Shown here: piece by piece, positions 36,458 through 58,940 of the stretch | Layout: every line of letters begins with the position of its first letter | How positions within the stretch are numbered: position 1 is the stretch's first letter | Assembly: GCA_013298815.1 (NCBI GenBank) | Contig: JAAFJF010000001.1 | Span: forward strand, 124,001 to 188,000 | Length of the DNA stretch: 64,000 bases | Reading direction: 5' to 3' | Origin: Polaromonas sp. | GTDB taxonomy: Bacteria > Pseudomonadota > Gammaproteobacteria > Burkholderiales > Burkholderiaceae_C | Notes under the pieces: generated by a model | Databases searched by the model: none | Seen by the model: the letters and a program-made list of their open reading frames with translations, nothing else | Told to the model about the DNA's origin: nothing | Position numbers and translations under genes: made by a program

Positions 36458-39283
36458 CTACAAGTTAGGTGCAAGAAGCCGAGACAACTCTTTTTCATCC
36501 GCGCCCCGCCGCGCAACCATGTCTTTCAACTGGTCATCGCCAATCTTACCGACGTTGAAGTAAGTTGCGTCAGGATGCGCCATGAAGAAGCCGCTGACAC
36601 TGGCCGCTGGCAGCATCGCCAAACTCTCGGTCAAGCTCATGCCAATGTCTTGGCACTGCAGCAGCTCAAACATCTCAGCTTTGACACTGTGGTCTGGGCA
36701 AGCTGGGTAGCCAGGGGCAGGGCGGATGCCTTTATATTTTTCGGCAATCAGCTCTTCAGCCGTCAAGCTCTCGTCGGTTGCATAACCCCACAAATCTGTC
36801 CGTGCGCGCTGGTGCATGCATTCTGCAAAGGCTTCCGCCAAGCGGTCGGCGAGGGCTTTGAGCATGATGCTGGAGTAGTCGTCCAAATCCGCCTGAAACG
36901 CTTTTTCTTTCTTCTCTGCGCCTATGCCGGCTGTAACAGCGAATAAGCCGATGTAATCTTGCTTGCCTTCCTTATCGCCTGCTTTTGGCGCAATGAAGTC
37001 TGCCAAGCAACGCGAAGGCCGCATCACACCGTCGATCATCTGCTTCTCAGTCTGCTGACGCAGGCCGTACCAAGTCATCGCCACCTCGGTGCGGGTTTCG
37101 TCGGTGTAGATTTCGATGTCGTCGTCGTTGACGGTGTTAGCGGGGTAAAACGCCACCACGCCATTGGCCTGCAGCCAGCGCCCTTCGATCAGGCGCTTGA
37201 GCATGCGCTTGCCGTCGGACAAGACGCGCACCGCCTCGGTGCCGACAATCTCGTCCTTCAAAATCGCAGGATACGGTCCGGCCAAATCCCAGGTCTGGAA
37301 GAACGGACCCCAGTCGATGTAATTCGCCAGCTCCATCAAATCGAAGTTTTTGAAGACGCGGCGGCCTATGAATTTTGGCGTAGGCGGGGTGTAGTTGTCC
37401 CAATCAATCGGGGTTTTGTTGGCACGCGCTTGGGCGATTGGCCAGAGTGGAACCTGCTTTTTATTCGCGTGCTGCAGCCTCACTTTGTCGTAATCGGCAT
37501 TGAGTTCGGCGATATACGCGCTGGCTTGGTCACTGAGCAAACTCTGCGCCACGCCCACGCTGCGGGAGGCATCCGGCACATAAACCACAGGTCCTTCGTA
37601 ATGCGGCGCGATTTTGACAGCCGTGTGGACACGCGAGCAAGTCGCCCCGCCGATCAAGAGTGGAATCTTCTTCATGCGGAAATAGTCGTCTTTCTGCATC
37701 TCTGCGGCGACATATTGCATTTCTTCCAAGCTCGGGGTGATCAACCCCGACAAGCCGACGATATCCACGCCCTCGACTTTGGCACGCGCCAAAATCTCGT
37801 GGCAGGGCACCATCACGCCGAGGTTGATGACCTCGAAGTTGTTGCATTGCAGCACCACGGTGACGATGTTTTTGCCGATGTCATGCACATCGCCCTTGAC
37901 GGTGGCGATGATGATTTTGCCTTTGGCCTTGACGTCTTCACCGGCCTCGGCCTGCAAGCGTTTTTCTTCCTCGATATACGGAATCAAATGGGCCACGGCG
38001 GACTTCATCACGCGGGCGGATTTGACCACTTGCGGCAAAAACATCTTGCCCTGACCAAACAAATCGCCAACCACGTTCATACCGTCCATCAACGGGCCTT
38101 CGATGACGTGCAACGGGCGGCCGCCCTTGGCCAGCACGATTTGGTAGGCTTCTTCGGTGTCTTCGGTGATGAAGTCGGTGATGCCGTGCACCAGCGCGTG
38201 GCTCAAGCGGGCGTTGACGCTGACTGGCGCATCCACCGTGCCGCGCCAAGCCAGCTTTTGGCTGTCGTCCTTGGCTGCGCCTTTGGCGGATTCGGCGACT
38301 TCAATCAGCCGCTCACCCGCATCTAGCCGCGCTTCGCCTTCTTTGTAGTTCGGCGTGCGGTTCAAAACGACGTCTTCGACGCGCTCTTTCAAAATTGGCT
38401 CTAAATCGTCATACACGCCCACCATACCGGCGTTGACGATGCCCATGTCCATGCCCGCCGCGATGGCGTGGTACAAAAACACGGTGTGAATGGCCTCGCG
38501 CACGGCATCGTTGCCGCGGAAGCTGAAGGACACGTTGGAGACGCCGCCCGACACCTTGGCACCCGGCAGGTTTTGCTTGATCCAGCGGGTCGCGTTGATG
38601 AAATCGACCGCGTAGTTGTTGTGCTCTTCAATGCCAGTGGCAATGGCGAAGATGTTCGGGTCAAAAATGATGTCTTCCGGCGGGAAATCCACCGTGTCGA
38701 CCAGCAATCGGTAGGCGCGTTCGCAAATCTCGATTTTGCGTTCGTAGGTGTCGGCTTGGCCCTTTTCGTCAAACGCCATCACCACCGCCGCCGCGCCGTA
38801 GCGTCGTAATAGTTTGGCTTGATACAAAAACTGCGCCTCGCCCTCTTTCATGCTGATGGAGTTCACCACCGCTTTGCCCTGCACGCAGCGCAGCCCAGCC
38901 TCAATCACGCTCCATTTGGAGCTGTCAATCATCACAGGCACGCGGGAGATATCGGGCTCAGACGCCATCAGATTCAAAAACTTTACCATCGCCGCTTGGC
39001 TGTCCAGCATGGCTTCGTCCATATTGACGTCGATGATCTGCGCGCCGTTTTCAACTTGCTGCCGCGCGACAGACAGCGCTTGCTCAAACTCGCCATTCAA
39101 AATCATGCGCGCAAAAGCCTTGGAGCCCGTGACGTTGGTGCGCTCGCCCACGTTGACAAACAAGGTTTTCGCGTCAATAAATATCGGCTCTAACCCAGAC
39201 AGGCGCATAGGCTGTATCTTGCTGTGGTCAACAAGGTTATCAGAAACAATAGTTTGTGTTGAAGTTGTCGAAACGGTCGTCAT
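36458..39283 (-). CDS. metH: Cobalamin-dependent methionine synthase, MetH C-terminal subunit
   Basis: A 941-residue protein with the pterin-binding domain ([18 protein letters not shown]), the cobalamin cap and binding domain ([11 protein letters not shown], the DxHxxG motif, then [14 protein letters not shown]) and the S-adenosylmethionine activation domain ([13 protein letters not shown]). The N-terminal homocysteine-binding domain is absent. This is the split form common in Burkholderiales, where a separate gene carries that domain, and not a truncation. An SAH riboswitch precedes it. Confidence 0.95.
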
Positions 39284-39310
39284 GGCTCACCTAGCAAAGA
39301 ATCGTTAAAA

Positions 39311-39410
39311 GCTGGTGAACGCCGTTAGTCACCTCGGAATAAGAGGCAGCAACCCAAGCCTGACGCCGCACAATAAATGCAGGCGCTGCAGCGCTCCTTG
39401 AGTTGGGCTT
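39311..39410 (-). ncRNA. S-adenosylhomocysteine (SAH) riboswitch
   Basis: On the minus strand the leader contains AAGGAGCGCTGCAGCG, then CAGGCTTGGG, then a CCTC-loop-GAGG hairpin, and finally TAACGGCGTTCACC, the conserved parts of the SAH riboswitch in order. It ends about 28 nt before the metH ATG. Known biology: this class raises expression of SAH-recycling and methionine-cycle genes when SAH accumulates, and occurs upstream of metH in beta- and gammaproteobacteria. Confidence 0.92.
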
Positions 39411-39494: not shown

Positions 39495-39730
39495 TTAGGA
39501 TAACTTTGTTGATAAGTTTCTAACAAAACACTAGTTATCCACAGATTAGTCACTATTCCAGAAGTTATCCAGAATCGCGTGACACCAAAATAGCGCCCTT
39601 ACCCACACCCGCACCTGCTGCCTAAGTGCTTGATGTGATTCAGATTTAACCCCTTATCCACAAAAAAGCGCCGCCCTTACTACTACTACTATCTTAATAT
39701 AAAGACTTAGAAGAATAAGAGAACAAGAAG
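39495..39730 (+). other. Candidate chromosomal replication origin (oriC)
   Basis: DnaA boxes: TTATCAACA on the minus strand (39507-39515), TTATCCACA (39535-39543), TTATCCAGA (39565-39573) and TTATCCACA (39654-39662), with a weaker TTATCCTAA on the minus strand at 39495-39503. After the last perfect box comes a GC-rich spacer (GCGCCGCCC), four CTA repeats in TTACTACTACTACTATC (from 39677) and an AT-rich stretch. Box, GC spacer, DnaA-trios and AT-rich DNA in that order is the described basal origin unwinding system. The flanking metH gene points away from it. Confidence 0.75.
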
Positions 39731-39800: not shown

Positions 39801-39850
39801 TACTATATTTTTTATAGCTGCTTAGGCAATAAATACGCCGACTAGATGCA
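39801..39850 (+). repeat. Dispersed palindromic repeat at left edge of restriction island
   Basis: ACTATATTTTTTATAGCTGC, then TTAGGCAATAAATACGCCG, then ACTAGATG. The first 20 bases are identical to those of the copy at 42936, in the same orientation. Confidence 0.9.
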
Positions 39851-39994
39851 TATTTATAGGGTAAAAATGATAAAAAAGTGCGATTCGACTGCTTTTAAAG
39901 AATACCGTTAATCGAAAAGTACATTTATGATTTACAGGGATCTTTCATTTAAATTTTACAAAGAGACTGTTTATTTTTACAGAGGGACAAAAAT

Positions 39995-40023: not shown

Positions 40024-41292
40024 ATGAACTCTTCTATTTCAACTGCTGACCATTCTGCAGCTCTCGCTTATTTAGCTGCAGCTCGTAAAACTCATTCTCA
40101 GGAAGCTATTGCAAAACATCTAAATTTCAGCGCTCGACATATCCGTCGCTGGGAAAATGGTGAAGTATTGCCACCCGAAAATATCGTTGCTGAGTTGCAA
40201 AAGTTTCTAAACTTCGGTATTCCGGCTGTTACAAAAGGAACATTCAAATTCGCAGACCTGTTTGCGGGTATTGGCGGAATTCGAATGGCTTTCGAAGCAA
40301 TTGGCGGTGAATGCGTTTTTACGAGTGAGTGGGATTCATTTGCTCAGAAAAGCTACGCCATGAACTTTTCAACAGATCATGAGATGAACAGCGACATCAC
40401 GCAAATACATGAAGATGACATCCCAGACCATGACGTATTGATTGGCGGCTTTCCATGTCAGCCATTTTCAATTGCTGGCGTTTCGAAGAAAAACTCTCTT
40501 GGTAAAGCGCATGGTTTTTCCGATGAAACGCAAGGCACCTTATTTTTTGATGTAGCGCGAATCATTGCAAAAAAACGCCCACGTGCATTCATGCTCGAAA
40601 ACGTCAAAAATCTTAAATCGCATGACAAAGGCCGTACTTTTGACGTCATTTACAAGACGTTAACCGAAGATCTGGGCTATCACGTGACTTACAGCGTGAT
40701 AGATGGCGCTCATTTTGTCCCTCAACACCGTGAACGAATCATTATTGTGGGTTTCCGCGATGAAGTTGACTTTGACGTGAAAGGCATCGAATTACCAGGA
40801 AAAGGTGATCATTTATTAAGCAAAATCATCCATACAAAAACTGACGAACCGTTTCTAGAGTGGGATGGCTCTAATTATTTCGATCATTCAAAAAAGAAGG
40901 TGCTTGATAAATACACCTTAACTGACAATCTTTGGTTGTATTTGCAAAACTACAAGAAAAAGCACAGCGCAGCAGGTAACGGCTTTGGTTTTGGTTTGGT
41001 AACGCCTGAAAGTGTTACACGAACCTTGTCAGCTAGATATTACAAAGACGGCTCTGAAATTTTATTCAGTCAAGGGGCTAAAAAGAACCCTCGACGATTA
41101 ACACCACGTGAGTGTGCGCGTCTTATGGGATTTCCTGATACTTTCAAAATTAATGTTTCTGATACCCGTGCGTATAAGCAGTTTGGTAATTCAGTAGTAG
41201 TACCAGTTATGGAAAAAGTTGCACAGGCTATGCAACCATTCATTTTGCAAGAAGAAGTCAAGAAGCCACGTTTCACACGCGCCAAAGTCTAA
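40024..41292 (+). CDS. DNA cytosine-5 methyltransferase, Dcm/EcoRII-like, with N-terminal HTH
   Basis: A 422-residue C5 methyltransferase. Residues about 10-65 form an XRE-like helix-turn-helix (THSQEAIAKHLNFSARHIRR, then WENGEVLPP). The catalytic part has motif I FADLFAGIGGIRMAFEAIGG, motif IV GGFPCQPFS with the catalytic Cys, motif VI ENVKNL, motif VIII QHRERI and motif X FGNSVVVPV. The target region SVTRTLSARYYKDGSEIL is almost that of Dcm, so CCWGG is the expected site. The region is AT-rich compared with its neighbours, indicating transfer. Confidence 0.93.
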   Translation: MNSSISTADHSAALAYLAAARKTHSQEAIAKHLNFSARHIRRWENGEVLPPENIVAELQKFLNFGIPAVTKGTFKFADLFAGIGGIRMAFEAIGGECVFTSEWDSFAQKSYAMNFSTDHEMNSDITQIHEDDIPDHDVLIGGFPCQPFSIAGVSKKNSLGKAHGFSDETQGTLFFDVARIIAKKRPRAFMLENVKNLKSHDKGRTFDVIYKTLTEDLGYHVTYSVIDGAHFVPQHRERIIIVGFRDEVDFDVKGIELPGKGDHLLSKIIHTKTDEPFLEWDGSNYFDHSKKKVLDKYTLTDNLWLYLQNYKKKHSAAGNGFGFGLVTPESVTRTLSARYYKDGSEILFSQGAKKNPRRLTPRECARLMGFPDTFKINVSDTRAYKQFGNSVVVPVMEKVAQAMQPFILQEEVKKPRFTRAKV

Positions 41293-41310
41293 TTTTCATG
41301 GAGTAATGCT

Positions 41311-41589
41311 ATGCAAACACAATCACGTATTCCTCAACTATTGAATAATTCATATTCTTCAATGAACGACTGGTTTTCAAAGATGCAAGCTAACGGTTTA
41401 CTTTTTCATCCAGAAGACCGTGCTGGTGATATTGTTGAAATCGTCTCGGGTAAACCTATCTTTTCAGCCAAAGAATGTACGGAGTTAGATCAGATTATTG
41501 ACGCCATGTTTGAAAAACATGGTGAAAAAGTTTGTGATGCTGCCTATAAATACGTGCATGAAGAGTTTTTACAAATGATCACTCATTGA
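41311..41589 (+). CDS. Unknown 92-residue protein in the restriction operon
   Basis: I do not recognise this protein. It has no membrane segment and no clear helix-turn-helix. It is acidic in the second half (SAKECTELDQIIDAMFEKHG) and probably helical. It lies between the methyltransferase (18 bp) and the nuclease (about 50 bp) with a GGAG ribosome-binding site, so it is likely translated as part of the system. Possible roles are regulator or partner of either enzyme; none is shown by the sequence. Confidence 0.7.
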   Translation: MQTQSRIPQLLNNSYSSMNDWFSKMQANGLLFHPEDRAGDIVEIVSGKPIFSAKECTELDQIIDAMFEKHGEKVCDAAYKYVHEEFLQMITH

Positions 41590-41638
41590 TTTGTCCGTTA
41601 CCATCCTTCTTATCATGCGTTGATTAAAAGGGTGGTAA

Positions 41639-42934
41639 ATGGATTTTCAAACCATCGCGCAATTAGAAGCGCGTTTTTCTGACTTAGGTGCTACACGAAT
41701 TTTTTGTAAACATCTTTCAGAGAATGACAATACGAAGCAACAAATTTACTTGGGAGGTAATTTTGAAGTTTTATCTTTTTTCCCATTTGGTGACATAACT
41801 GCTTTTTCAGAATTAAAAGACCCTAACTTTAAAGCACCGTTAGAGTTTTTTTGGGTTAACCAAAGTATTACCGAAAAGGCTGATGGAGCACAGCTTATTT
41901 TGTATCCCAAATACCCAGAAGTTCGACTATCTGGTTTTTTAGCCGGATGCAAATCTGCACCGTCAAAGTATCTTCAACCAATCCCAAAGGAATTGCGTGA
42001 TAAAAAAGACGGCAGATTTCTAATTTTTGGGACTACTGCAGACGGTAAAACATTGGCGTATCTTGCGCCAGAATTTTCTTCATTGGCCAATGAAATTTCA
42101 ATTAAGTTTTTATCTGTGCCACCTGACGGTTTGTTTTTAGAACTCACTGTGCCAGTTGGCTCAAATCAGAACAAAGTACTAGTAATGAATGCTTTAAGAG
42201 ATATTCAATTACGGGGATTTCATGATTCTTGTCGAAGGAACAAGCTTGGTGAAATCATTCCTTATGCAGCTACAAACGGTGGTGGTTACACCTTGGAGGC
42301 GCTTTTAGGAATTACGCCAAATGGTGATGCTGAGCCTGATTATTTGGGTTGGGAAATAAAGTCGTATAGCAGCAGCAAAATTACATTGATGACACCAGAA
42401 CCAAGAGGTGGCTTTTATGGGAAACAAGGTGCAAAAGCTTTTGTAGAACGTTATGGCCACGATTCTGGCGGAGGTTCGATGTATTTCACTGGTTTGCATA
42501 AAGTTGGGTTAGTTTCTGAGAAAACCGGTTTGATCATGCTAATTCAAGGCTTTGATCCGTTGAACCCAAAGAAGATGGACGTGGATGGAAATGTCGTACT
42601 TATAGATGGAAAAGGTAATGAGGCGGCGTCATGGTCGTTTACTGAGTTGCTTTCACACTGGAATCGAAAGCATGCTTTTGCAGCTTATGTGCCTTACACG
42701 GCTCAAAAAGTCCCTGCGGCATACAAATACAACAATCCCGTACTGATGTGTGAACATACTGATTTTCTGAGGTATTTAAACGCACTGTGCAATGGATCAA
42801 TCGTTTTCGATCCTGGTTCTAAAGTAACAGATGCAAATACACCAAACTCTAAAATAAAGGCTAGAAGTCAATTTAGAATTAATCTTGCAAACTTAAATCA
42901 ATTGTATGAAAAATTAATACCAGAAATGCTATAA
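41639..42934 (+). CDS. MvaI/BcnI-family type II restriction endonuclease
   Basis: A 431-residue protein. The C-terminal half is MvaI/BcnI-like: RGFHDSCRRNKLGEIIPYAA, TNGGGYTLEALLGITPNGDA and the catalytic EPDYLGWEIKSY (D...ExK), then MTPEPRGGFYGKQGAKAF. MvaI cuts CCWGG, which fits the adjacent Dcm-like methyltransferase. MvaI itself is about 246 residues, so the N-terminal ~180 residues are an extra domain of unknown role. The start is GTG/ATG near 41639. It ends 1 bp before a dispersed repeat. Confidence 0.85.
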   Translation: MDFQTIAQLEARFSDLGATRIFCKHLSENDNTKQQIYLGGNFEVLSFFPFGDITAFSELKDPNFKAPLEFFWVNQSITEKADGAQLILYPKYPEVRLSGFLAGCKSAPSKYLQPIPKELRDKKDGRFLIFGTTADGKTLAYLAPEFSSLANEISIKFLSVPPDGLFLELTVPVGSNQNKVLVMNALRDIQLRGFHDSCRRNKLGEIIPYAATNGGGYTLEALLGITPNGDAEPDYLGWEIKSYSSSKITLMTPEPRGGFYGKQGAKAFVERYGHDSGGGSMYFTGLHKVGLVSEKTGLIMLIQGFDPLNPKKMDVDGNVVLIDGKGNEAASWSFTELLSHWNRKHAFAAYVPYTAQKVPAAYKYNNPVLMCEHTDFLRYLNALCNGSIVFDPGSKVTDANTPNSKIKARSQFRINLANLNQLYEKLIPEML

Positions 42935-42935
42935 A

Positions 42936-42981
42936 TCACTATATTTTTTATAGCTGCATAAGCAATAAATACGCTGGCTAC
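42936..42981 (+). repeat. Dispersed palindromic repeat after the restriction endonuclease
   Basis: ACTATATTTTTTATAGCTGC, then ATAAGCAATAAATACGCTGG, then CTA. It lies immediately after the endonuclease stop and is a direct repeat of the copy at 39801. Confidence 0.9.
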
Positions 42982-43093
42982 ACACTGATTTATTTATAAT
43001 ATAAGAATATTTTTATCAAAAATAAATAAAAAATTAACTTGCGAAATTACCATATTTTTGATAAAATTACTGTATAAAAAAACAGAGGTAAAT

Positions 43094-43333
43094 ATGATTA
43101 AAAAAGGTGATCGCATAGACATACTTCCTCAATGGCAAGACGCTGGGGATGCAAACTACGTTTGGGTGGCAACAGACGATGAAGAAAATGGACGAATCAC
43201 TATTTGTCCAATCAGTATGCCTATTTCAATCAAGCCGCGCTCTACGGTTGATGTCAACATGATTACGCTGCGTGAAGCTGGGTTTGCTTCAAACATATTA
43301 AATAAGCGCGCGCTTTCACTACAAATAACATAG
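43094..43333 (+). CDS. Unknown 79-residue protein between two repeat copies
   Basis: I do not recognise this protein. It begins MIKKGDRIDILPQWQDAGD and ends SNILNKRALSLQIT; it looks like a small beta-rich soluble protein with no membrane segment. AGAGGT precedes the ATG at good spacing. The stop codon is supplied by the ATAGC end of a dispersed-repeat copy. It is AT-rich like the restriction genes and sits between two repeats in the same orientation, as a one-gene cassette. Confidence 0.65.
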   Translation: MIKKGDRIDILPQWQDAGDANYVWVATDDEENGRITICPISMPISIKPRSTVDVNMITLREAGFASNILNKRALSLQIT

Positions 43334-43362
43334 CAGACTAGGCAATAAATACGCCGGCTAGA
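43329..43362 (+). repeat. Dispersed palindromic repeat, shortened copy
   Basis: ACATAGCAGACTAGGCAAT, then AAATACGCCGGCTAG. The hairpin end is missing. It overlaps the last codons and stop of the 79-residue gene and is followed by AGCCATATTTGACTCATAA, a flank shared in part with the lnt copy. Confidence 0.85.
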
Positions 43363-43386
43363 GCCATATTTGACTCATAAAAAAGA

Positions 43387-43434: not shown

Positions 43435-46249
<2,815 letters not shown>

Positions 46250-46259
46250 AATTCAAGGG

Positions 46260-47366
46260 TTAAATCCGCATCGGCATCACCACGTATTTGAACGAGGTGT
46301 TGTCAGGAATGGTCAACAACGCCGAGCTGTTGCCGTCAGACAATTCCAGCTTCACCATCTCTTGCGTCATGTTGCTCAGGGCGTCGATGAGGTAGGTGAC
46401 GTTGAAACCAATTTCGATCTCGTCGCCGCCGTAGTCAATGTCCAGCTCGTCCACAGCTTCTTCCTGCTCGGCGTTGTTGGACGCCACGCGCAGGGTGCCC
46501 GGCTCGATGTTCAGGCGCACGCCTTTGAACTTGTCGCTGGTCAAAATCGCGGTGCGCTGCAGCGATGCCAAGAAAGGCACGCGGCCCAAGATGATGGCGT
46601 TTTTGTGGTTTTTGGGGATAACGCGGTTGTAGTCGGGGAACTTGCCTTCGACCAGCTTGGTCACAAATTCCATGCCTTCAAAGCTGAACTTGGCTTGGTT
46701 GGCGGCGAATTGGAACTCGATGGCGCCTTCTTTGTCGCTGAGCAAGCGCTGCATTTCGATGACAGTTTTGCGCGGCAGGATGACTTCTTGTTTCGGCACT
46801 TCCACATCCAAAGTCGCTGTCGCAAACGCCAGACGGTGGCCGTCGGTGGCGACGATGCTGAGCTGTGTGCCTTCGGCCACGAACAAAATACCGTTGAGGT
46901 AGTAGCGAATGTCGTGTACCGCCATCGCAAAAGCGACTTGACCTAGTAAGTCTTTCAAGACCTTTTGCGGCACGTTGAATGCAGGGCCGAGGTTGGCTGA
47001 TTCTTGCACCAGCGGGAAGTCTTCAGCAGGCAAAGTTTGCAGGGTGAACTTGCTTTTGCCGCCTTTCAAAATCAACTTTGACGCGCTGGATTCTAAAGAG
47101 ACCGATTGATCGCCCGGCATGGTGCGTAAAATGTCGATGACTTTGCGTGCGCCCACGGTGGTGGTGAAGTCGCCAGCGTCGCCGTCAAACTCTGCGCTGG
47201 TGCGGATTTGGATTTCGAGGTCGCTGGTGGTCAACTCAAGGCGGTTGCCGGTTTTGCGGATCAAGACGTTGGCCAAAATCGGCAGCGTGTGACGCCGCTC
47301 GACGATGCCCGCGACGGATTGCAGCGCGGCGAGTACTTTGTCTTGTGTTGCCTTGAGAACGATCAT
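46260..47366 (-). CDS. dnaN: DNA polymerase III sliding clamp (beta subunit)
   Basis: A 368-residue clamp of three tandem domains, with the C-terminal MPMRI that forms part of the protein-binding pocket. Opening residues MIVLKATQDKVLAALQSVAG are family-typical. It follows dnaA by about 100 bp on the same strand and precedes gyrB, the standard order. Confidence 0.97.
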   Translation of the reverse strand: MIVLKATQDKVLAALQSVAGIVERRHTLPILANVLIRKTGNRLELTTSDLEIQIRTSAEFDGDAGDFTTTVGARKVIDILRTMPGDQSVSLESSASKLILKGGKSKFTLQTLPAEDFPLVQESANLGPAFNVPQKVLKDLLGQVAFAMAVHDIRYYLNGILFVAEGTQLSIVATDGHRLAFATATLDVEVPKQEVILPRKTVIEMQRLLSDKEGAIEFQFAANQAKFSFEGMEFVTKLVEGKFPDYNRVIPKNHKNAIILGRVPFLASLQRTAILTSDKFKGVRLNIEPGTLRVASNNAEQEEAVDELDIDYGGDEIEIGFNVTYLIDALSNMTQEMVKLELSDGNSSALLTIPDNTSFKYVVMPMRI

Positions 47367-47468
47367 GTTTGCCTCTTTAAAAATGTGCTTATAAATCTGC
47401 TTTTATATTAGCTTCTACATTAACTTACTATTTTAACCTTTTGCTACCCTAAAACCCTAGCTTTAAAC

Positions 47469-48935
47469 TTAGCCTTTTAGGGTCTGCTCCAGCACGTGTA
47501 ATTGCTGATTCAGCTCACTCAAAAGCTGCCTCTCAGCCGTCATTTTGCGCACCGCATGCAGCACCGTGGTGTGGTCGCGTCCGCCGAACAACTCACCGAT
47601 TTCTGGCAGGCTTTTTTGGGTCAATTCTTTGGCCAAATACATCGCAATTTGGCGCGGTCGCGCAATGCTGGCGGGACGCTTTTTGGAGTACATGTCGGCG
47701 ATTTTGATTTTGTAATAGTCGGCGACGGTTTTTTGGATATTTTCGACCGAAATCTGGCGGTTTTGTATCGACAGCAAATCACGCAGGGCTTCACGCGCCA
47801 AGGCAATCGAGATTTCCTTTTGGTTGAAGCGGGAATAAGCCAGGATTTTGCGCAACGCGCCTTCCAGCTCGCGTACGTTGGAGCGCACGTTTTTGGCGAC
47901 AAAAAACGCCACTTCTTCAGGCATCTCGGTGCCCTCGGCCTTGGCTTTGTTGATCAAAATGGCGACGCGCATCTCCAGCTCGGGCGGCTCGATGGCAACG
48001 GTTAAGCCTGAGTCAAAGCGCGACACCAAACGTTCGTGGATGTCGGTCAAGCCTTTCGGATAGGTGTCGCTGGTCATCACCAAGTGCGATTTGCGGGCCA
48101 ACAGCGCCTCAAATGCGTTGAAAAACTCCTCCTGTGTGCGCTCTTTGTTGGCGAAGAACTGCACATCGTCGATCAACAACAGGTCCAGCGAGTGGTAGCG
48201 CTCTTTGAACTCGTCAAAGGTTTTACGCTGGTAAGCTTTGACCACGTCGGTGACGAACTGCTCGGCGTGGATGTACAGCACTTTGGCGTTGGGGCGGTCT
48301 TGCAGCAGGCGGTTGCCGATGGCGTGCATCAAATGGGTTTTGCCCAGACCGACGCCACCGTATATGAACAATGGGTTGTACAACTGGCCGGGCGTGCCAG
48401 AGACGTGCAAAGCGGCGGCGCGCGCCATGCGGTTGGCGGTTCCCTCAATCAGCGCGTCGAAGGTGAGTGCGGTGTTTAAACGCGGTTTGTTGCCCATGAT
48501 GCCGTTGGCGGCACTTAGGCCTCCAGCGCCTGCGTCCGCCACCATGTCCATAGGCTCTGTGACGCTGCCGAACTCGGCATTTTTCACATCCATGGTGGTT
48601 CTGGGCGCGGCTTCGCGTTGCATCAAGGCCAGCTCTAAAGCAATCGGCTGACCGTACATTTTTTCCAGCAACACGCTGATGCGGCTGGCGTATTGCGCAC
48701 GCACCCAGTCGAGTTTGAAGCGGTTCGCGATGTAGATGGTGACTTTGGACAGGTCGTTGCTGCTTTGCACGACCAGTGGTTTGATCCAGGTGTTGAACTG
48801 CTGCTCTGGCAGCTCTTGCGCCAGCACGTCCATGCAGGCTTGCCACAGGCTTTGGCTGAGGGCTTGGTCGTCGTCTAATGCGGAAATTGGGTTACCAGCT
48901 TGTGAAGAATAGGAAGGGTTGCTGGCCGAGGTCAT
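47469..48935 (-). CDS. dnaA: Chromosomal replication initiator DnaA
   Basis: A 488-residue initiator. Domain I spans about residues 20-110, followed by a variable linker. Domain III has the AAA+ Walker [16 protein letters not shown] and Walker [11 protein letters not shown]; domain IV carries the DNA-binding signature [15 protein letters not shown]. It binds TTATCCACA boxes, of which one group lies directly upstream and another 9.5 kb away. The gene is transcribed towards the candidate origin, opposite to the usual arrangement. Confidence 0.98.
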
Positions 48936-48967
48936 GTTACTTTTCTTAGATGAAGTGTCAAAAATTC

Positions 48968-49025
48968 TGTGGATATTATTTTGTAGTTGGCACGTTCAGT
49001 GTAACTTATCCCCTGATTATCCACA
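48968..49025 (-). promoter_or_regulatory. DnaA boxes upstream of dnaA
   Basis: TTATCCACA (49017-49025) is perfect; TTATCCCCT (49006-49014) and ATATCCACA on the minus strand (48968-48976) are near matches. They lie 33-90 bp before the dnaA start, where DnaA commonly represses itself. No GC spacer or DnaA-trio was seen here. Confidence 0.7.
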
Positions 49026-49147
49026 ATATTTCGTTTGGAAATCGGATTCAAGAAGGCATCAAGTCATAGCGTCTGGGTTGAGAGGGGGTTTGTTGGGAAT
49101 GCGTTAAAATAGATGCATCTCAAGTGAAAACAAGCGAAAGTATCACC

Positions 49148-49300
49148 ATGTCAAACCACACACCCGCCGCCCACAACGACGCTACTGAGCATTCAGAAGA
49201 CGTGATTGAAGTCGTGGCACACAAAATGTCATACATGCTGCCGATTGCTGGTGCTATCTTGATTTTCTTGCTCGCATTCATTGCGGTGAATGTTGCTTAA
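49148..49300 (+). CDS. Small single-span membrane protein, unknown
   Basis: A 50-residue gene read directly from the sequence: MSNHTPAAHNDATEHSEDVI, then EVVAHKMSYMLPIAGAILIF, then LLAFIAVNVA. A hydrophilic His/Asp-rich N-terminus is followed by one membrane helix (about residues 30-49). GCGAAAG lies before the ATG and a -10-like TAAAAT about 38 bp upstream. It is divergent from dnaA. I do not recognise a family; composition and codon use look like a real gene. Confidence 0.6.
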   Translation: MSNHTPAAHNDATEHSEDVIEVVAHKMSYMLPIAGAILIFLLAFIAVNVA

Positions 49301-49330
49301 ATCACTTTAATTTAAGTAAAAAACGCTTTC

Positions 49331-49375
49331 ATCCAGCGTTTTTGCTGCCTAAAAAGCTATCAAATATATAGCGCA
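49331..49375 (-). repeat. Dispersed palindromic repeat, intergenic
   Basis: ATCCAGCGTTTTTGCTGCC, then TAAAAAGCTATCAAATATAT, then AGC. It lies 30 bp after the small membrane-protein gene and before the convergent modC end. Its orientation is inverted relative to the copy at 39801. Confidence 0.85.
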
Positions 49376-49392
49376 AACAAACCTGTTCACCC

Positions 49393-50595
49393 TCAAGCGC
49401 GCATCGGCATGATGTGAACACTTTTTGGTGGAATGTGCACATTCACCGTGAGTGAGGCATTTTGGGTTGCATTTCTTCCATTTTCTGCACTGATTCCCAG
49501 ACTTCGCACATGTGCACTGGACAGAGTGAGCGTGAGGCGCACATTAGCCAATCCTGCCCAGTCCAGCGGCGCTAAGGTGCAAATACTGGTTTCGCCGAGC
49601 GACAAAACTTCTAAAAATTGACATCGCAAGGTGTTTGGCGGCAAACTTTGTTCACAGGCGGAGATTTTTTCTACTGAGGTGATGTCCAAATGCTCTGCCG
49701 CCAGCACCCAAGTCACGTGCGCGCCGTCGTCTAATTTGTTTTTATCGATGACGCTTAGTGGGTAGCCATGCCAATCTAACTGCCCCCACCGCGCTTGGGT
49801 TCCTTGTTGAGAGAGGTCCTTGGATTTGTAAAAACGCCCTTTGAAATGGTTTTGAATGCCCACCAGTTCTGCCACCCGAGCATTGCGCGGGCGGCTGAAC
49901 ACTTGCTCTGGCGGGCCGCTTTGTAGCGTTGTGCCGGCGTCCAAAATAACAACACGGTCCGCCAAACGCCGCGCTTCGTTCAAATCGTGCGTGACCAAAA
50001 CCATGGGAGTGGACACCGAATTGCGCAAATTAGCCAGTTCGCGGTACAAACTGGTGCGGCTGGGTGCGTCCACCGCTGAAAAGGGTTCGTCTAACAGCAG
50101 TACTGCAGGGTTACGCGCCAGCGCCCGCGCCAAGGCAACGCGTTGCTGCTGGCCGCCTGAGAGTTCGCTGGGCAGGCGGTGCTCTAGACCGTCTAGACCG
50201 AGCCGGTTCAGGATGTTTTTTATGCCACTATTTTGATCTTCAATTCCGCCACTAATCAGCGTATTTGTTGCCGCTACAGCTATGTTTTTAATAGCGGATA
50301 AATGAGGAAAAAGCGCATAATTTTGAAACACCAAACCGACCTGACGGTCTTGCGGTGACAGGTTGGTGTGCTCTTTTGAATCAACAGATTTATCAAACCA
50401 AACCGTATCCCCGACGGAAATGCGGCCTTGCAAGCTGGGGGTTTTGAGCAGGCCCGCAATCGCCCGCAGCACGCTGGTTTTGCCGCTGCCGGAGGGGCCA
50501 ACGAGGGCGACCAACTCGCCTGGGGCGCAGTCAAACTGCACGTTCAAAGGCATGGGGGCGGTGTTGGTCAGATCGACGCTTAGCTTGCCTGTCAT
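49393..50595 (-). CDS. modC: Molybdate ABC transporter ATP-binding protein
   Basis: A 400-residue ATPase. Walker A is GPSGSGKTS, the signature is ELSGGQQQRVALARAL, and Walker B is VLLLDEPFSAVD. A C-terminal TOBE/Mop-like region (from about residue 250) includes AEHLDITSVEKI and is expected to sense molybdate. Just after the Q-loop stretch NYALFPHLSAI is an in-frame dispersed repeat (about residues 99-114, IAVAATNTLIS), where E. coli ModC is shorter. It overlaps modB by 4 bp. Confidence 0.93.
   Translation of the reverse strand: MTGKLSVDLTNTAPMPLNVQFDCAPGELVALVGPSGSGKTSVLRAIAGLLKTPSLQGRISVGDTVWFDKSVDSKEHTNLSPQDRQVGLVFQNYALFPHLSAIKNIAVAATNTLISGGIEDQNSGIKNILNRLGLDGLEHRLPSELSGGQQQRVALARALARNPAVLLLDEPFSAVDAPSRTSLYRELANLRNSVSTPMVLVTHDLNEARRLADRVVILDAGTTLQSGPPEQVFSRPRNARVAELVGIQNHFKGRFYKSKDLSQQGTQARWGQLDWHGYPLSVIDKNKLDDGAHVTWVLAAEHLDITSVEKISACEQSLPPNTLRCQFLEVLSLGETSICTLAPLDWAGLANVRLTLTLSSAHVRSLGISAENGRNATQNASLTVNVHIPPKSVHIMPMRA
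50255..50298 (-). repeat. Dispersed repeat copy inside modC
   Basis: AATCAGCGTATTTGTTGCCG, then CTACAGCTATGTTTTTAATA, then GC. It is read in frame as AIKNIAVAATNTLI, between the Q-loop and the ABC signature. Confidence 0.8.
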
Positions 50596-51269
50596 GTTCT
50601 TGCGTGGTTTTTATTTAAGCTAAACCGATCAGCCGCAAATACCAGTGCCAGTGCCAAGAGTGAAAAGCACACCAAAGCCAAGGCCATGACGTGCGCACCA
50701 CTGGCGTCAAAGGCTTGCACGCGGTCGTAAATGGCGATGGACAGGGTTTTGGTTTCGCCTGAAATCGCGCCGCCCACCATCAACACCACACCAAATTCGC
50801 CCAGTGTGTGTGCAGCGGTGAGGGCGACGCCCGCCAGCAGACCCGGCCAAGCCAACGGCAGTTCAATTTTCCAAAAGGTGCGCCATGTGGACAAGCCTGA
50901 TACCCAAGCCGCTTCGCGCAGGTTGTGGGGGATGCCGGCAAATGCGCGCTGGATGGGTTGCACCATGAAAGGTAAATTGACCAGCACACTGGCAAAAAGC
51001 AGGCCTTCGAAGCTAAAAACGAGGTGTAAATTGAGGTGTTGCGCCAACCAAGCGCCCAAAGCCGAGTTTTGCCCGAACATGGTGAGCAAGTAAAAACCGA
51101 TGACTGTGGGCGGTAACAGAAGCGGCAGGGTGACAAGTGCTTCAAATAGCGGTTTGCCACGCCAAGAGGTTGTGGCGAGCCAGTGTGCTAAGGCAACGCC
51201 AATCGGCAACAAAAGCGCTGCCGTCAAGAATGCGAGTAGTAAAGAGGTGCGTGCCGCTGGCCAATCCAT
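50592..51269 (-). CDS. modB: Molybdate ABC transporter permease
   Basis: A 225-residue inner-membrane permease with about five to six membrane segments and the EAA loop REAAWVSGLSTWRTFWKIEL, then PLAWPGLLAG. It fits ModB in length and in PLLLPPTVIGFYLL. It overlaps modC and follows xdhC by 7 bp. The matching ModA is encoded 21 kb away. Confidence 0.93.
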   Translation of the reverse strand: MDWPAARTSLLLAFLTAALLLPIGVALAHWLATTSWRGKPLFEALVTLPLLLPPTVIGFYLLTMFGQNSALGAWLAQHLNLHLVFSFEGLLFASVLVNLPFMVQPIQRAFAGIPHNLREAAWVSGLSTWRTFWKIELPLAWPGLLAGVALTAAHTLGEFGVVLMVGGAISGETKTLSIAIYDRVQAFDASGAHVMALALVCFSLLALALVFAADRFSLNKNHART

Positions 51270-51276
51270 GCGGACA

Positions 51277-52383
51277 TTATGCGGCTAAGGATGACGATTC
51301 TGAGGTTTTGCTGTCTTGGGAACTGGCGGAAGACAGCGTATTTTTGACGGCAATGATCTGCGCCACGATGGACACCGCGATTTCAGCCGGCGTTTTTGCG
51401 TGGATGTTCAAACCGACGGGGCCGTGCAGACGAGCGAGTTGCTCGGGCGTCATGCCGAAGTGCTCGATCATGCGTTCTTTGCGCGTGGCTTGGTTGCGTT
51501 TGGAGCCGAGTGCGCCTACGTAGAAAGCGTCGGACTGAAGGGCTTCCATCAGCGCCATGTCGTCTAATTTAGAGTCGTGGGTGAGGGCGACGATGGCGGT
51601 GTGGGCGTCGGGAATCAACTCGCGCACCACGTCGTCGGGCATACCGGCAATGCGAGTTGCACCCACTTGGGATGGGTCAAAAGCGTATTCTTCACGTGGG
51701 TCACATACTAAGACTTCAAAATCTAGCAGCACCGCCATTTGGGCAACGGCTTGGCTGAGTTGGCCTGCCCCTATTAACAACAAGCGCCATTTGGGGCCGA
51801 ATAGCGTGGTCAACGTCAAGCCGTCAAACGCCATGGCTTGGTCGCGTTTGGCATCCGCCAAAGTCACCAAACCTGTGGACAAGCTCAGCGTGCGGGCGAC
51901 CAGCTGGTGGGCGGTGGTGCGCTGCAATACTTGCTCAATCGACGCCACATCGTGCACCGGTTCTTGTACCAAACGCAGTGTGCCGCCGCAGGGCAGGCCG
52001 AAGCGGGCGGCTTCGTCTTTGGTGACGCCGTAGGCGATCATTGCTGGCTTTGCTATATTATCAATAGCTGTTGAGGCAGTAAATACGCTGGTTAGAGGTG
52101 TTTTTGAGGGTGTTTTTGCTTCGTTTTCAGATAAATGATCGTTTTTTGCCGTTTTGGAGATCTCTTTTTTGAAATCCGCCTTGGTGCGAGCAATCAAATC
52201 GTCTTCGATGCAGCCGCCGGACACAGAGCCGCTGACCATGCCATCGTCCCGCACAGCCAGCAAAGCGCCCGGTGGTCTGGGCGCGCTGCCCCAGGTTTCT
52301 ACCACCGTGACCAAGGTGACGGCATGGCCGGCGCGTCGCCACGCCAGCACATCGTTGAGCACCCGCAGGTCTAGGCTTTCCAT
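51277..52383 (-). CDS. xdhC: XdhC/CoxI-family molybdenum hydroxylase maturation factor
   Basis: A 368-residue protein with the N-terminal XdhC/CoxI domain (TLVTVVETWGSAPRPPGALL, VSGSVSGGCIEDDLI) and a C-terminal Rossmann domain (LLLIGAGQLSQAVAQMAVLL, VGALGSKRN). It inserts sulfurated molybdenum cofactor into the partner enzyme. Residues about 70-112 are a long low-complexity linker, much larger than in homologues, that ends in an in-frame dispersed repeat (SVFTASTAIDNIA). Context: directly after iorB and before modB. Confidence 0.9.
   Translation of the reverse strand: MESLDLRVLNDVLAWRRAGHAVTLVTVVETWGSAPRPPGALLAVRDDGMVSGSVSGGCIEDDLIARTKADFKKEISKTAKNDHLSENEAKTPSKTPLTSVFTASTAIDNIAKPAMIAYGVTKDEAARFGLPCGGTLRLVQEPVHDVASIEQVLQRTTAHQLVARTLSLSTGLVTLADAKRDQAMAFDGLTLTTLFGPKWRLLLIGAGQLSQAVAQMAVLLDFEVLVCDPREEYAFDPSQVGATRIAGMPDDVVRELIPDAHTAIVALTHDSKLDDMALMEALQSDAFYVGALGSKRNQATRKERMIEHFGMTPEQLARLHGPVGLNIHAKTPAEIAVSIVAQIIAVKNTLSSASSQDSKTSESSSLAA
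52049..52097 (+). repeat. Dispersed repeat copy inside xdhC
   Basis: TTTGCTATATTATCAATAGC, then TGTTGAGGCAGTAAATACGC, then TGGTTAG. Near-consensus; xdhC reads it as TSVFTASTAIDNIA within an expanded linker. Confidence 0.9.
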
Positions 52384-52410
52384 GGTTGGCAGCGTTCCTT
52401 TTTTGCTGGT

Positions 52411-54585
52411 TTAAGCTGATTTGAGCGCAGCTTCGTTCATCGGCAGGCTGCGCAGACGCTTACCTGTCAACTTGAACACGGCGTTGGCAATAGCCGGTGC
52501 GACCAAGGCGGTTGCGGGCTCGCCAATGCCGCCTGGCTTTTCAGTGCTTTGAACCAGCATGATGTCCATCACCGGTGTTTCGTGCATGCGTACGACGGGG
52601 AAGCCGTTGTAGTTGGTTTGCTGCACACGGCCTTTAGCCAAAGTGATTTCTTGCATGATAGCAGCACCTAAACCGAAGACCACGCTGGATTGGATTTGCG
52701 CTTCTACCGTGTCTGGGTTGACCATGTGGCCCGCATCCGACGCAATGGTGACTTTGTGGACTTTGACCTCGCCACCGACCAAGCTGATCTCAGCCACCAT
52801 CGCCATGTAGGTGCCATAGCCTTCCATCAAGGCGATACCCTGTGCGCGACCTGCTGGCAGGGCTTTGCCCCAACCGGCTTTGTCGGCCACCATTTTGAGT
52901 ACATTGGCGTAGCGCGGCTCTTTGCTGAGCAAGCTCATGCGGTAGGTATACGGGTCTTGACCTGCTGCGGCTGCCAGCTCGTCGATGAAGCCCTCGTTGG
53001 CAAACACGTTGAGTGCATGGCTGACGGAGCGCCAGTAGCCGACGCGCAAGCCCGCGTCGTGTTTGACGGTGTCGTGCTTGGTGGCGGGAATCTCGTAGCC
53101 AGCAATGGCGGCTTCTGTCATCAGCGGGTCTTGCACTTCACCAGGTAAGCCAAAGACGCGGCCGGTGACGGATTGTGAGGTGAGGCGGTAGGTCATCGCG
53201 CTTGGTTTGCCATCTGCGCCCAAGCTGGCTGCCATGGTGCTGACGGATTGTGGGCGGTAGAAGTCGTGCGTCATGTCGTCTTCACGGCTCCAGACGAGTT
53301 TGACGGGTTTGCCCACGGCTTTGGAGATTTGCGCGGCTTGGATGATGAAGTCGATGTCGATTCGGCGACCAAAACCGCCGCCTAAGAAGGTGGTGGTGAG
53401 TGACACGTCTTCCACTTTCGCGCCAACCGCTTTGGCGACTTCGCCTTGTGCGGCGTCTTGCCATTGGGTGGGGCCAATCAGCGTGACTTTGCCTTTGTCG
53501 TAAAACGCAGTGAAGTTCATCGGTTCTAGTGGCGAGTGCGAGAGCAGCTGGCTGACGTATTCAGCGCGAACGACTTTGCTAGACGCGGCAATCACAGCCT
53601 CGGCATCGCCCACGGCTTTGATGGGTAGAGGTTTGCCGGTTTTTGAAGCCGCGCGAATGCCTTCCAGCATGCTTTTTTCGTTGAGTGCAGCGCCAGCGCC
53701 TTCGTCCCACACAATCGTCAACGCTTTGCGCGCCATGTTGGCTCGCCACCAGCTGTTGGCAACGACGGCGACGCCATCGGGGATTTGCACCACATCAATC
53801 ACACCGGGCATCGATTTCGCTTTAGCGGCGTCAAAGCTGACGACTTTGCCGCCGATGACCGGGCATTGCTCCAGCGCGGCATAGACCATACCTGGCATTT
53901 TGACGTCGATACCAAACACGGCAGTGCCGTTGATTTTGGCGGGCGTATCGAGGCGTTTGGTTTTTTTGCCGACGATGGTGAAGTCTTTCGGGTCTTTGAT
54001 CGCGACTTTTTCTGGTACGGGCAGTTTGGATGCGGCTTCGGCCAAGCTGCCGTAAGTCGCTTTTTTGCCGTTCGCGCCGATGACCATACCTTTTTCGGCA
54101 CGCAGGGTAGAGCGGTCAACATTCCACTTGGTAGCTGCCGCGCTGATCAGCATTTCACGCACTTGTGCGCCGGCAACGCGCAGCTTTTCCCAGCCGTCGC
54201 GTACCGATGTTGAACCGCCGGTTAGTTGCGGGCCACCTAAGAGCGGGTTGCCGTAGAGCTTGGCGTTTGGCGGTGCAATGGCGACTTTGATGGTTTTGAG
54301 GTCAACATTGAGCTCTTCTGCAATCAGCATCGGCATGGAGGTGTAAACACCTTGTCCCATTTCTGAGCGCGCGGACAGCAGGGTGATGGTGTTGTCATCG
54401 GCAATATGTACCCAGGCATTGGGCGTGTGTACTAGGCCCGCAGCGATGGCTTGGGTGCTAGGCAAAGCGATGCCGAACATGAAGCCGCTGGTGGCAAGGC
54501 TAGTGACGGCGGTGGTTTTTAAAAAGTTACGACGGGATGTTGTCAGGCTTGAAGTGGTCACGCTTGAGGTAGTCATGTTTGTCAT
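52411..54585 (-). CDS. Molybdopterin-binding subunit of a xanthine dehydrogenase/isoquinoline oxidoreductase-type enzyme
   Basis: A 724-residue molybdenum hydroxylase large subunit of the IorB type. It starts with a Tat signal, TSRRNFLKTTAVTSLATSGF, so the folded enzyme is exported to the periplasm or its membrane face. Cofactor-binding stretches include SARSEMGQGVYTSMP, TTFLGGGFGRRIDIDF and the C-terminal KPGGIGEPATALVAPAIANA, with the catalytic Glu. The substrate (aldehyde or N-heterocycle) cannot be told. It lies 11 bp after the 2Fe-2S subunit gene. Confidence 0.88.
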   Translation of the reverse strand: MTNMTTSSVTTSSLTTSRRNFLKTTAVTSLATSGFMFGIALPSTQAIAAGLVHTPNAWVHIADDNTITLLSARSEMGQGVYTSMPMLIAEELNVDLKTIKVAIAPPNAKLYGNPLLGGPQLTGGSTSVRDGWEKLRVAGAQVREMLISAAATKWNVDRSTLRAEKGMVIGANGKKATYGSLAEAASKLPVPEKVAIKDPKDFTIVGKKTKRLDTPAKINGTAVFGIDVKMPGMVYAALEQCPVIGGKVVSFDAAKAKSMPGVIDVVQIPDGVAVVANSWWRANMARKALTIVWDEGAGAALNEKSMLEGIRAASKTGKPLPIKAVGDAEAVIAASSKVVRAEYVSQLLSHSPLEPMNFTAFYDKGKVTLIGPTQWQDAAQGEVAKAVGAKVEDVSLTTTFLGGGFGRRIDIDFIIQAAQISKAVGKPVKLVWSREDDMTHDFYRPQSVSTMAASLGADGKPSAMTYRLTSQSVTGRVFGLPGEVQDPLMTEAAIAGYEIPATKHDTVKHDAGLRVGYWRSVSHALNVFANEGFIDELAAAAGQDPYTYRMSLLSKEPRYANVLKMVADKAGWGKALPAGRAQGIALMEGYGTYMAMVAEISLVGGEVKVHKVTIASDAGHMVNPDTVEAQIQSSVVFGLGAAIMQEITLAKGRVQQTNYNGFPVVRMHETPVMDIMLVQSTEKPGGIGEPATALVAPAIANAVFKLTGKRLRSLPMNEAALKSA

Positions 54586-54596
54586 GGTAGGGCTCC

Positions 54597-55061
54597 TTAT
54601 GCTGTGCGCAATGTTGCTGCGGCGTCTTTGATGGCGGCGCGGATGCGGGGGTAGGTGCCGCAGCGGCAGATGTTGCCACTCATGGCGGCATCGATGTCGG
54701 CATCACTCGGGTTTTTGTTGGTTTGCAGCAGGGCGGCAGCGCTCATGAGCTGGCCGGACTGGCAGTAGCCGCACTGCGGCACATCGTGCTTGATCCAAGC
54801 CACTTGCAGAGCGTGGTCGTTGTTTTTGGACAGGCCTTCGACCGTGCCGACTTTTTTGCCAGAAACGGCAGACAGTGGCGTTTGGCAAGCGCGTATGGGT
54901 GCGCCGTTGAGGTGTACCGTACATGCGCCACACAAGGCCGCACCGCAACCAAATTTGGTGCCGGTCATGCCCAGTTCATCGCGAATGACCCACAACAGTG
55001 GGGTGTCAGGCTCGGCGTTGGCGCTGACGGCTTTGCCGTTGATGTGAAACTTGACGCTCAT
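54597..55061 (-). CDS. 2Fe-2S subunit of the molybdenum hydroxylase
   Basis: A 154-residue IorA-type subunit with the plant-type cluster [16 protein letters not shown] and the second cluster CGYCQSGQ...GNICRCGTY. It passes electrons from the molybdenum centre. [10 protein letters not shown] is the family start; the frame remains open 16 codons upstream. It is the first gene of iorA-iorB-xdhC-modB-modC, so cofactor supply and enzyme are made together. Confidence 0.92.
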
Positions 55062-55264
55062 GGTTGAATCTCCAAAAAAGGGTAGGCTGATGAAATTGAA
55101 TTCAACCAAGAGCTTACAAACGGTACGCGCTTATGAACCTAGGGTAAGCCCTTGTTTGGTGCGTTTTTGATGTAGGAATTCTCAAAATGCAACACGTAGG
55201 TCACCAAAATCACGAAGTCACCTGAGTTACGCCGCTGACGACAGCAGTCAAGATTGCCACTTCT

Positions 55265-56659
55265 TCAATGATGCGATTGGGCGTTTGCTACTACTTCTGC
55301 GTCTGTGTGCGAGACGGGTGTGATAGGTGTATTGAGCTGCAAGGCCATGACCGTTCCCTTGCCTGGCGCTGATTTGATGGACATTGAGCCGTTTAAAAGT
55401 GAAGCTATCTCGCTCACAATAGCCAGTCCTAAGCCAAAGCCCTCGCTGGTTCCTGGGTTGTTTTTGCTTTTATAAAACTCCTCAAAGATCAGCTCTTGCT
55501 CGTCAGCTGCAATGCCTATGCCTGTGTCCCACACCTCTATGCGGCAACCTTGTGTTTTGTTTCTGCAGGCTACCAAAATACCGCCTGATGAGGTGAATTT
55601 ACTCGCATTAGAAATTAAATTCCAAAGAACGCGATTGAGCAGTGTTGGGTCGGTTTGAATCTCACCATCGATGACATGTATGCGAAGGAATAGATTCTTC
55701 TTGAGCAATATTGGTCTGTATTGCATCGCAAGATTCTCAAAAAAGGCGCGTAAATTAACCGTTGAAACTTCAACTTTGACCTGCCCTTCTGCGATTCTGG
55801 CCATGTCAAACATAGAGTCAAACAAAGCGGTGACAGATTTTGTTGCCAGCGCGATTTTGGGGCTTAGCACGGCTGACATATTTGGCTCTTTGTCCAGCCA
55901 TTCAGCATAAATATCCAAGGCGAGAACCGGTTGCCGCATGTCGTGAGCGGCGCTCGCAAAAAACCGATTCTTCGTAGAAACAGCTTCCATAGCAGTCTGG
56001 CTTTGCACGGTTAGCGATTTGATTAGTTGTGCGTTGTGGTATTGCGTTTGCAGACTTTTGGTGTATTCCAAGTGCATTTGATGCCCTTGCGTTTTTAGAA
56101 TATAAATGTAAACAACCACCAGCCCAAGGATCCAGTAGTTCTCAAAAATTGGCTTGCTGTCGACAACTGATATTTGAAACAAGATGCAGATCAACAGACC
56201 CGTTGCATACCCGCTTAAAGTTAGGTAAAACGAGGGCAAGTGGCTGTACAACATCGTCATGGTGAAGATGCCGATTCCCAGCGTAATAAGCATGCAAAGC
56301 GTTTGTACGTTGGCGGGGACCTTGTCAAAAAAGACAAATGCAAAAGATCCCCACATTAACCCAGTGAAGAATTTGAGCAACACAAATGCGGCGGAGTTAT
56401 CTTTGTGAGAGGCATGGCTTTGGGTGGATGTTACGGCTACCAAACGCCAGGCAGATACAAGTAGACCGAATAGATACCAAACAACAAGCGCTGTTTTTGA
56501 GGTGCTGTTGAAATAAATCAAAAGCGTCAGCATATGAATAATCAAGATCACAAACAGCGTGGTTTGCAGCGCTTTGGCTGCGATTTTCCGCAAAGATTCT
56601 TGTTCAATCCATAGCGCTTCAGCCGCTGCAGGTGTTTCAATGTTTTTGAATCTTTTCAT
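55265..56659 (-). CDS. Membrane sensor histidine kinase (orphan, copy 1)
   Basis: A 464-residue kinase with about six N-terminal membrane segments (to residue ~195), a coiled linker, the H-box FFASAAHDMRQPVLALDIYA, the N-box LWNLISNASKFTSSGG, the G1 box DTGIGI and the G2 box GFGLGLAI. No extracellular sensor domain is evident, so it probably senses a membrane-associated or internal signal. No response regulator is adjacent. It is a paralogue of the next gene, 71 bp away. Confidence 0.88.
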   Translation of the reverse strand: MKRFKNIETPAAAEALWIEQESLRKIAAKALQTTLFVILIIHMLTLLIYFNSTSKTALVVWYLFGLLVSAWRLVAVTSTQSHASHKDNSAAFVLLKFFTGLMWGSFAFVFFDKVPANVQTLCMLITLGIGIFTMTMLYSHLPSFYLTLSGYATGLLICILFQISVVDSKPIFENYWILGLVVVYIYILKTQGHQMHLEYTKSLQTQYHNAQLIKSLTVQSQTAMEAVSTKNRFFASAAHDMRQPVLALDIYAEWLDKEPNMSAVLSPKIALATKSVTALFDSMFDMARIAEGQVKVEVSTVNLRAFFENLAMQYRPILLKKNLFLRIHVIDGEIQTDPTLLNRVLWNLISNASKFTSSGGILVACRNKTQGCRIEVWDTGIGIAADEQELIFEEFYKSKNNPGTSEGFGLGLAIVSEIASLLNGSMSIKSAPGKGTVMALQLNTPITPVSHTDAEVVANAQSHH

Positions 56660-56730
56660 ACCAAAGAAATACCGGTGTGTTTTTCAATAACTCATCACAG
56701 TTACACTTTAACACTGAAAAGCATGAAACC

Positions 56731-58107: not shown

Positions 58108-58164
58108 ACTCTCAGTGTACAGACAAATACCAAATTATCACTAGGTATTTGCTAGCACCGAGTT

Positions 58165-58761: not shown

Positions 58762-58940
58762 GGGAAGTTCCTTTTTAATCATCTACACATATAGACAAGG
58801 CCATCCTAAGCGCCATCGTTCTGTCAAATGCATGGTGATGTAAGCGAGGTAACAAACTTGGGCGCTATCACCTAAATGGATAGCATGCCGTTACGTGTCT
58901 TACATGGTGTTCAAGCAAGTAACTGGACCCTTGCTTGCCT

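Follow-up and report, generated by a model that had tools for sequence, protein, structure and literature searches.

Does the cluster of DnaA boxes between metH and gyrB, about 8 kb from dnaA, mark the chromosomal origin of replication (oriC)? The question arises in the window, by which we mean the whole stretch of 64,000 nucleotides analysed here (G000:C1:124001-188000, from a genome of 3.33 Mb in 90 contigs), where the initial annotation had proposed an oriC with DnaA-trio architecture away from dnaA. The nearest named relatives of the DnaA protein belong to Comamonadaceae, e.g., Ramlibacter, Polaromonas and Acidovorax. Our answer is that the locus (39495-39730) is very probably oriC, with a probability of about 0.9. 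The proposal is supported by a match to a family profile, by the singularity of the locus in the genome and by the skew minima of relatives, which together are taken to outweigh the shallow skew of the window's own genus.

Both DnaA-trio origins and origins away from dnaA are already known. The parts of the literature used here give predicted DnaA-trio origins for 1755 of 2070 bacteria (PMC8287927) and describe origins away from dnaA as common (PMC2275245, PMC4285127). In particular, the same portion of PMC2275245 counts 342 of 568 chromosomes whose oriC both adjoins dnaA and lies close to the switch of skew, so that a position away from dnaA is nothing exceptional in itself. According to the portion of PMC4285127 on which we draw, unknown origins are not sought by aligning oriC sequences. 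In the open-licence literature we found no study of where origins are placed in Comamonadaceae; the predicted origins of such species may be listed in DoriC.

Structure of the candidate origin

DnaA boxes were called with at most one mismatch to TTATCCACA, and IHF-like sites were compared with the consensus WATCARNNNNTTR. The candidate contains five boxes in 156 bp (39507-39662; Table 1). Two of them are perfect, as initially annotated, and three others have one mismatch, where two near-perfect boxes had been reported. The GC-rich spacer, the four CTA trinucleotides and the AT-rich DNA that were said to follow the last box can all be read at 39663-39730, and a TTA precedes the CTA run.

Under the search rule for the basal unwinding system (BUS), a DnaA box must have three or more trios no farther than 16 bp away; boxes in tandem before the trios, which are not obligatory, accompany 57% of the predicted cases (PMC8287927, in the part used here). 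At the candidate, the TTA and the four CTA follow a perfect box after 14 nt. Tandem boxes are absent; the nearest other box (at most one mismatch) ends 46 nt upstream of the last box.

This arrangement suggests the following scheme. DnaA would bind the boxes at 39507-39662, and an IHF-like protein may introduce a bend at 39623-39635. Starting at the last box, a DnaA assembly would extend across the spacer to the DnaA-trios (39677-39691), engaging one strand, and would melt the AT-rich DNA to the right of the trios, where the helicase would be loaded and two forks would start.

Table 1. Features of the candidate origin and its surroundings in window coordinates, followed by the two modules of G174 in contig coordinates
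Feature	Position	Strand	Remarks
mnmE, yidC, rnpA, rpmH	9.3-13.5 kb	-	
metH	36458-39283	-	
SAH riboswitch of metH	39310-39405	-	Between metH and candidate origin; Rfam RF01057, 45.5 bits (gathering 37)
DnaA box	39507-39515	-	TTATCAACA, one mismatch
DnaA box	39535-39543	+	Perfect
DnaA box	39565-39573	+	TTATCCAGA, one mismatch
Family profile R1 match	39595-39718	+	64.8 bits
DnaA box	39599-39607	+	TTACCCACA, one mismatch
IHF-like site	39623-39635	-	CATCAAGCACTTA, one mismatch to consensus; predicted binding
DnaA box adjoining trios	39654-39662	+	Perfect
GC-rich spacer	39663-39676	+	14 nt, AAAAAGCGCCGCCC, G/C 9/14
DnaA-trios	39677-39691	+	TTA 39677-39679, then CTA x4 39680-39691
AT-rich stretch	39692 to about 39730	+	Putative unwinding and helicase-loading region
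Restriction-modification island	40024-43333	+	Type II, low GC (about 40%); between candidate origin and gyrB
gyrB, dnaN, dnaA block	43435-48935	-	dnaA-dnaN gap 102 bp, without module
mnmG	from 62149		Beyond the window: rsmG, LysE-type gene, parA, parB
G174 module L236	G174:C3:304595-304715		
G174 module L235	G174:C3:280153-280277		

Occurrence in the genome and in the family

The window contains 22 DnaA boxes (at most one mismatch), against 9.0 expected from shuffles. Contig C1 has 62 such boxes in 288,868 bases, and the candidate, with its five, is the sole place where at least three fall within 200 bp. When C1's number of boxes was placed at random in 5000 runs, four came together in 6 runs and five never did.

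For searches in relatives, a criterion of at least four boxes per 350 bp proved too strict for genomes with weak boxes; box-plus-trio scans and a profile were used instead. The profile, R1, is a sequence-only profile of 52 modules from other genera, the window genus being left out. Its training set consists of 52 of the 57 modules picked by the scans (box plus trios), after removal of four near-copies and the second module of one genome; one module situated in a long CTA repeat also stood outside the training.

The candidate is the single significant R1 match in the window genome (E 1.3e-17), the runner-up among the best 150 of 545 candidates having E 0.18. At E 0.01, the window holds no other match, the rpmH region and the dnaA-dnaN gap included. 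With the best 13 candidates considered per genome, R1 matches 238 of the 250 family genomes at E 0.01, some of which supplied training rows, and it matches 16 of 40 genomes from other families of the order, mostly weakly. Of the 250 family genomes, 36 contain a strict pattern (TATCCACA, 11-24 bases, CTACTACTA) and none contains its reversed form. Some genomes carry more than one module: two or three about 4-20 kb apart are present in G007, G013, G021, G184, G189, G267, G272 and G283, and tandem modules 0.3-0.6 kb apart in, e.g., G006, G015, G231 and G235.

The alignment of the 52 modules shows, in order, a half box CACA, CAAGTGCTTGAT, a AAAAGGGGAAAA stretch, a box, a GC-rich spacer, the trios and an AT-rich tail. 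On its opposite strand, CAAGTGCTTGAT resembles an IHF site. Of 62 modules, 34 have the IHF-like core (33 of these with the same offset, 1 shifted by a base) and 20 have the full IHF consensus, which none of the 62 has on the opposite strand; the counts are not independent because the modules share descent.

Four genomes of the window genus were compared (G000, G001, G002 and G003). The core of the module is conserved in all four and the flanks less so, G001 being the most divergent member; the trios at 39683-39691 are invariant. G002 and G003 retain the upstream perfect box and TTATCCAGA, both of which are altered in G001. The IHF-like core matches in G000, G002 and G003, where the first base of the site differs, and has no match in G001.

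Strand composition

Skew was analysed in four relatives with a remote module, chosen because each has one long contig with module and dnaN far apart, as the minimum of cumulative GC skew over 400-kb stretches around the module and dnaN, not over whole chromosomes. For G189 and G021, which belong to the same genus, the minimum lies 0.8 kb and 2.7 kb, respectively, from the nearer of the two modules in the stretch, and dnaN is 98 kb and 119 kb off. The gene-level change point falls at 4506-4519 kb in G189 (module at 4515.8 kb) and at 2495-2526 kb in G021 (module at 2507.3 kb). G114 has its minimum 5.3 kb from the module, with dnaN 260 kb off, and G231 has a skew that declines roughly as far as the module and levels off beyond it, with the minimum 93 kb off; the change point is uninformative in both. 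Among polar motifs in G189, GGGNAGGG supports 4516-4529 kb and RRNAGGGS supports 4525-4530 kb, at least 9 kb past the module.

These minima bear on whether the candidate might titrate or regulate DnaA, as datA and DARS do, and not serve as an origin. Such loci in E. coli also have clustered DnaA boxes and an IHF site, but the candidate has trios and an AT-rich stretch, it is the sole significant R1 match in its genome, and the same module stands beside the skew minimum in three relatives. We regard this reading as very improbable.

The skew of its own genus counts against the identification of the candidate as oriC. The initial annotation expected the skew minimum at the candidate, and this is not exactly what is found: the skew is shallow, with the minimum at C1:103852 on the window contig, 60 kb to the metH side, and at position 346343 of G003:C11, 13 kb to the metH side. 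The support ranges of the gene-level change points, 20-107 kb on C1 and 342-418 kb on G003:C11, leave the module (163.6 kb and 333.3 kb, respectively) outside. In the window genus, with 13 and 15 of the KOPS-like GGGNAGGG sites, polar motifs are uninformative. Octamers learnt from G189 and G231 were also tried as a strand signal and rejected; they give no signal in the window genus, overlap one another and are probably derived from a single repeat.

One might suppose, then, that the module is the origin of the lineage but that the firing point is now, or was until recently, at some other point of the 60 kb towards metH, the side on which the skew turns and both minima fall. Against this, the genome has no second significant module, the skew there is small and noisy, and the gene order of the genus is rearranged, which can shift minima. 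We give this supposition even less credit than a datA- or DARS-like role.

As for the rearrangement, the gene order of the genus might be explained by a single inversion, relative to G189 and G231, of the origin-to-dnaA block between mnmG and rnpA. The landmark genes and the module have the order and strands that this account requires. It stays a suggestion because metH, glyS and the other genes searched from the origin-rnpA interval were not found between mnmG and the origin in the G189 and G231 stretches.

Gene direction was a further argument of the initial annotation, which had most genes to the left run away from the candidate. This is true of the left side, where the frames of at least 200 codons between mnmE and metH number 15 on the - strand and 5 on the + strand. 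It does not hold on the right side, which the initial annotation did not mention and where all 11 such frames from gyrB to putA (43435-61979) are on the - strand, i.e., point towards the candidate. The genes of G003 lean away from the module (left, 140 - vs 106 +; right, 62 + vs 46 -), and there is no strand lean on C1 (left, 68 - vs 58 +; right, 46 + vs 51 -). Note that gyrB, dnaN, dnaA and the rest of the 11 frames would be head-on to the right-hand fork.

Position of the module relative to dnaA

The module of the window genus lies on the 3' side of gyrB, in all four genomes, instead of in the dnaA-dnaN gap that is common in relatives. That gap measures 93 bp in G003, 144 bp in G001 and 102 bp in the window, and has no R1 match inside. 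Between module and gyrB, G001 has nothing, G000 and G003 have a restriction-modification island, and G002, where the contig breaks off within gyrB, has a DUF4143-type AAA-ATPase gene; with an island, an ATPase gene or nothing at the same place, the interval from origin to gyrB looks like an insertion hot spot. The other neighbour of the module is metH in three genomes and a glycosyltransferase-4 gene in G001.

Among 80 named dnaA loci, 30 have an R1 match. In 29 of them it occupies the dnaA-dnaN gap, on the same strand as dnaA, and in one (L056) it is just past dnaA, at a contig end. The remaining 50 have no match in the DNA covered, which is at most 10 kb on each side.

The initial annotation named 49 kb and the vicinity of rpmH as alternative places for the origin, and origins are usually flanked by dnaA, as stated in the part of PMC4285127 used here. 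R1 has no match at either place, and both were rejected. If the active origin lay upstream of dnaA (about 48.97-49.03 kb), with the candidate as a secondary DnaA-binding locus, the two boxes present there, one of them perfect, would speak for it, but they are without trios and also fit autoregulation of dnaA, and the module is upstream of dnaA in 0 of the 80 named loci, some of whose sequences begin close to dnaA; we consider such an origin no more credible than a firing point on the metH side.

A wider view of where the module lies in the family is given by a tally of 108 of the 238 matched genomes, in which genomes without a listed module or dnaN row (e.g., G204, G100 and G058) are left out and weak matches are under-represented: the module is in the dnaA-dnaN gap in 38, remote on the same contig in 43 and on another contig in 27. 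Gap matches end 4-24 bp before dnaN, and the 43 remote modules lie 2.9-260 kb from dnaN, with a median of 51 kb for the nearest. For example, two modules lie 16-17 kb past dnaA in Comamonas testosteroni NFYY023, and one lies about 78 kb from dnaA in Ottowia beijingensis, both distances assuming corresponding contig numbers. In G174 the trio run of the gap module is broken, and a second, remote module 23 kb from dnaN is intact. When gap placement is mapped as a label on a quick unrooted gene tree of DnaN plus DnaA (79 loci: 76 named loci with readable DnaN, plus G001, G003 and the window), it requires 5 changes, at least 4 of them forced by starred branches, versus 23.8 when shuffled.

With little more than even confidence, we take these data to mean that Comamonadaceae have one alignable origin cassette of ~130 bp, which has moved repeatedly relative to dnaA (at least four switches) and is present in some genomes in two or three copies kilobases apart, these being either intermediates or genuine multi-module origins. 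If so, the family would be a natural experiment on origin movement. This family picture, i.e., one alignable cassette in several places, with repeated switches and multi-copy genomes, may be new.

The result has practical consequences as well. An origin search confined to the vicinity of dnaA would misplace the origin by about 8 kb here and by up to 260 kb (to dnaN) in relatives. R1, with its matches in 238 of 250 genomes, offers alignment-based origin finding for this family, which is in addition a system for studying origin relocation and copy number.

Comparison with known origins

The part of Pelliciari et al. (2021; PMC8287927) used here describes the BUS of Bacillus subtilis oriC as a box, a short spacer and CTA trios (3'-GAT-5' on the opposite strand), an arrangement that the candidate shares; unlike the B. 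subtilis BUS, the candidate has a single box, not a tandem pair, directly before the trios, an IHF-like site upstream and a location between metH and gyrB. Like the oriC of Escherichia coli, it is not beside dnaA. In E. coli, mnmG (gidA) is in the oriC region, as it is in the region of the candidate, from which, unlike in E. coli, it is separated by 22 kb that include dnaA-dnaN-gyrB. A further likeness is an ATCAA-core IHF-like site among the boxes, which in E. coli is GATCAACAACCTG (PMC4285127, in the part used here). The candidate can also be aligned with the predicted dnaA-dnaN gap modules of Polaromonas, Hylemonella, Caenimonas, Curvibacter sp. PAE-UM and Limnohabitans sp. B9-3; unlike these, the window genus has no R1 match in that gap.

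Gene neighbourhood

Location among origin-proximal genes is one of the criteria for oriC, and the candidate has such a neighbourhood: gyrB is 3.7 kb, dnaA 8 kb, mnmG 22 kb and rpmH 26 kb away, and parS-like sites and parAB follow at 24-26 kb and 27-29 kb, respectively. The two parS-like sites (0 and 1 mismatch) are to the right of the candidate, inside mnmG and rsmG and before parA and parB, and are the only ones in the genome with at most two mismatches. A control with the reversed pattern gives 6 matches per strand at the same threshold vs 2 for parS, so that the number of sites is uninformative and only the exactness of both counts.

The island between the candidate and gyrB encodes a C5 cytosine methylase (PF00145), an MvaI/BcnI-type endonuclease (PF15515) and two small ORFs without a Pfam match. 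It is flanked by a dispersed repeat of ~60 bp (tatagctgc..aggcaataaatacgcc) at 39803-39860, 42940-42990 and 43337-43365. A search that includes this repeat yields at least 40-46 matches per genome in the four genomes of the genus, and most of the listed ones cover the repeat.
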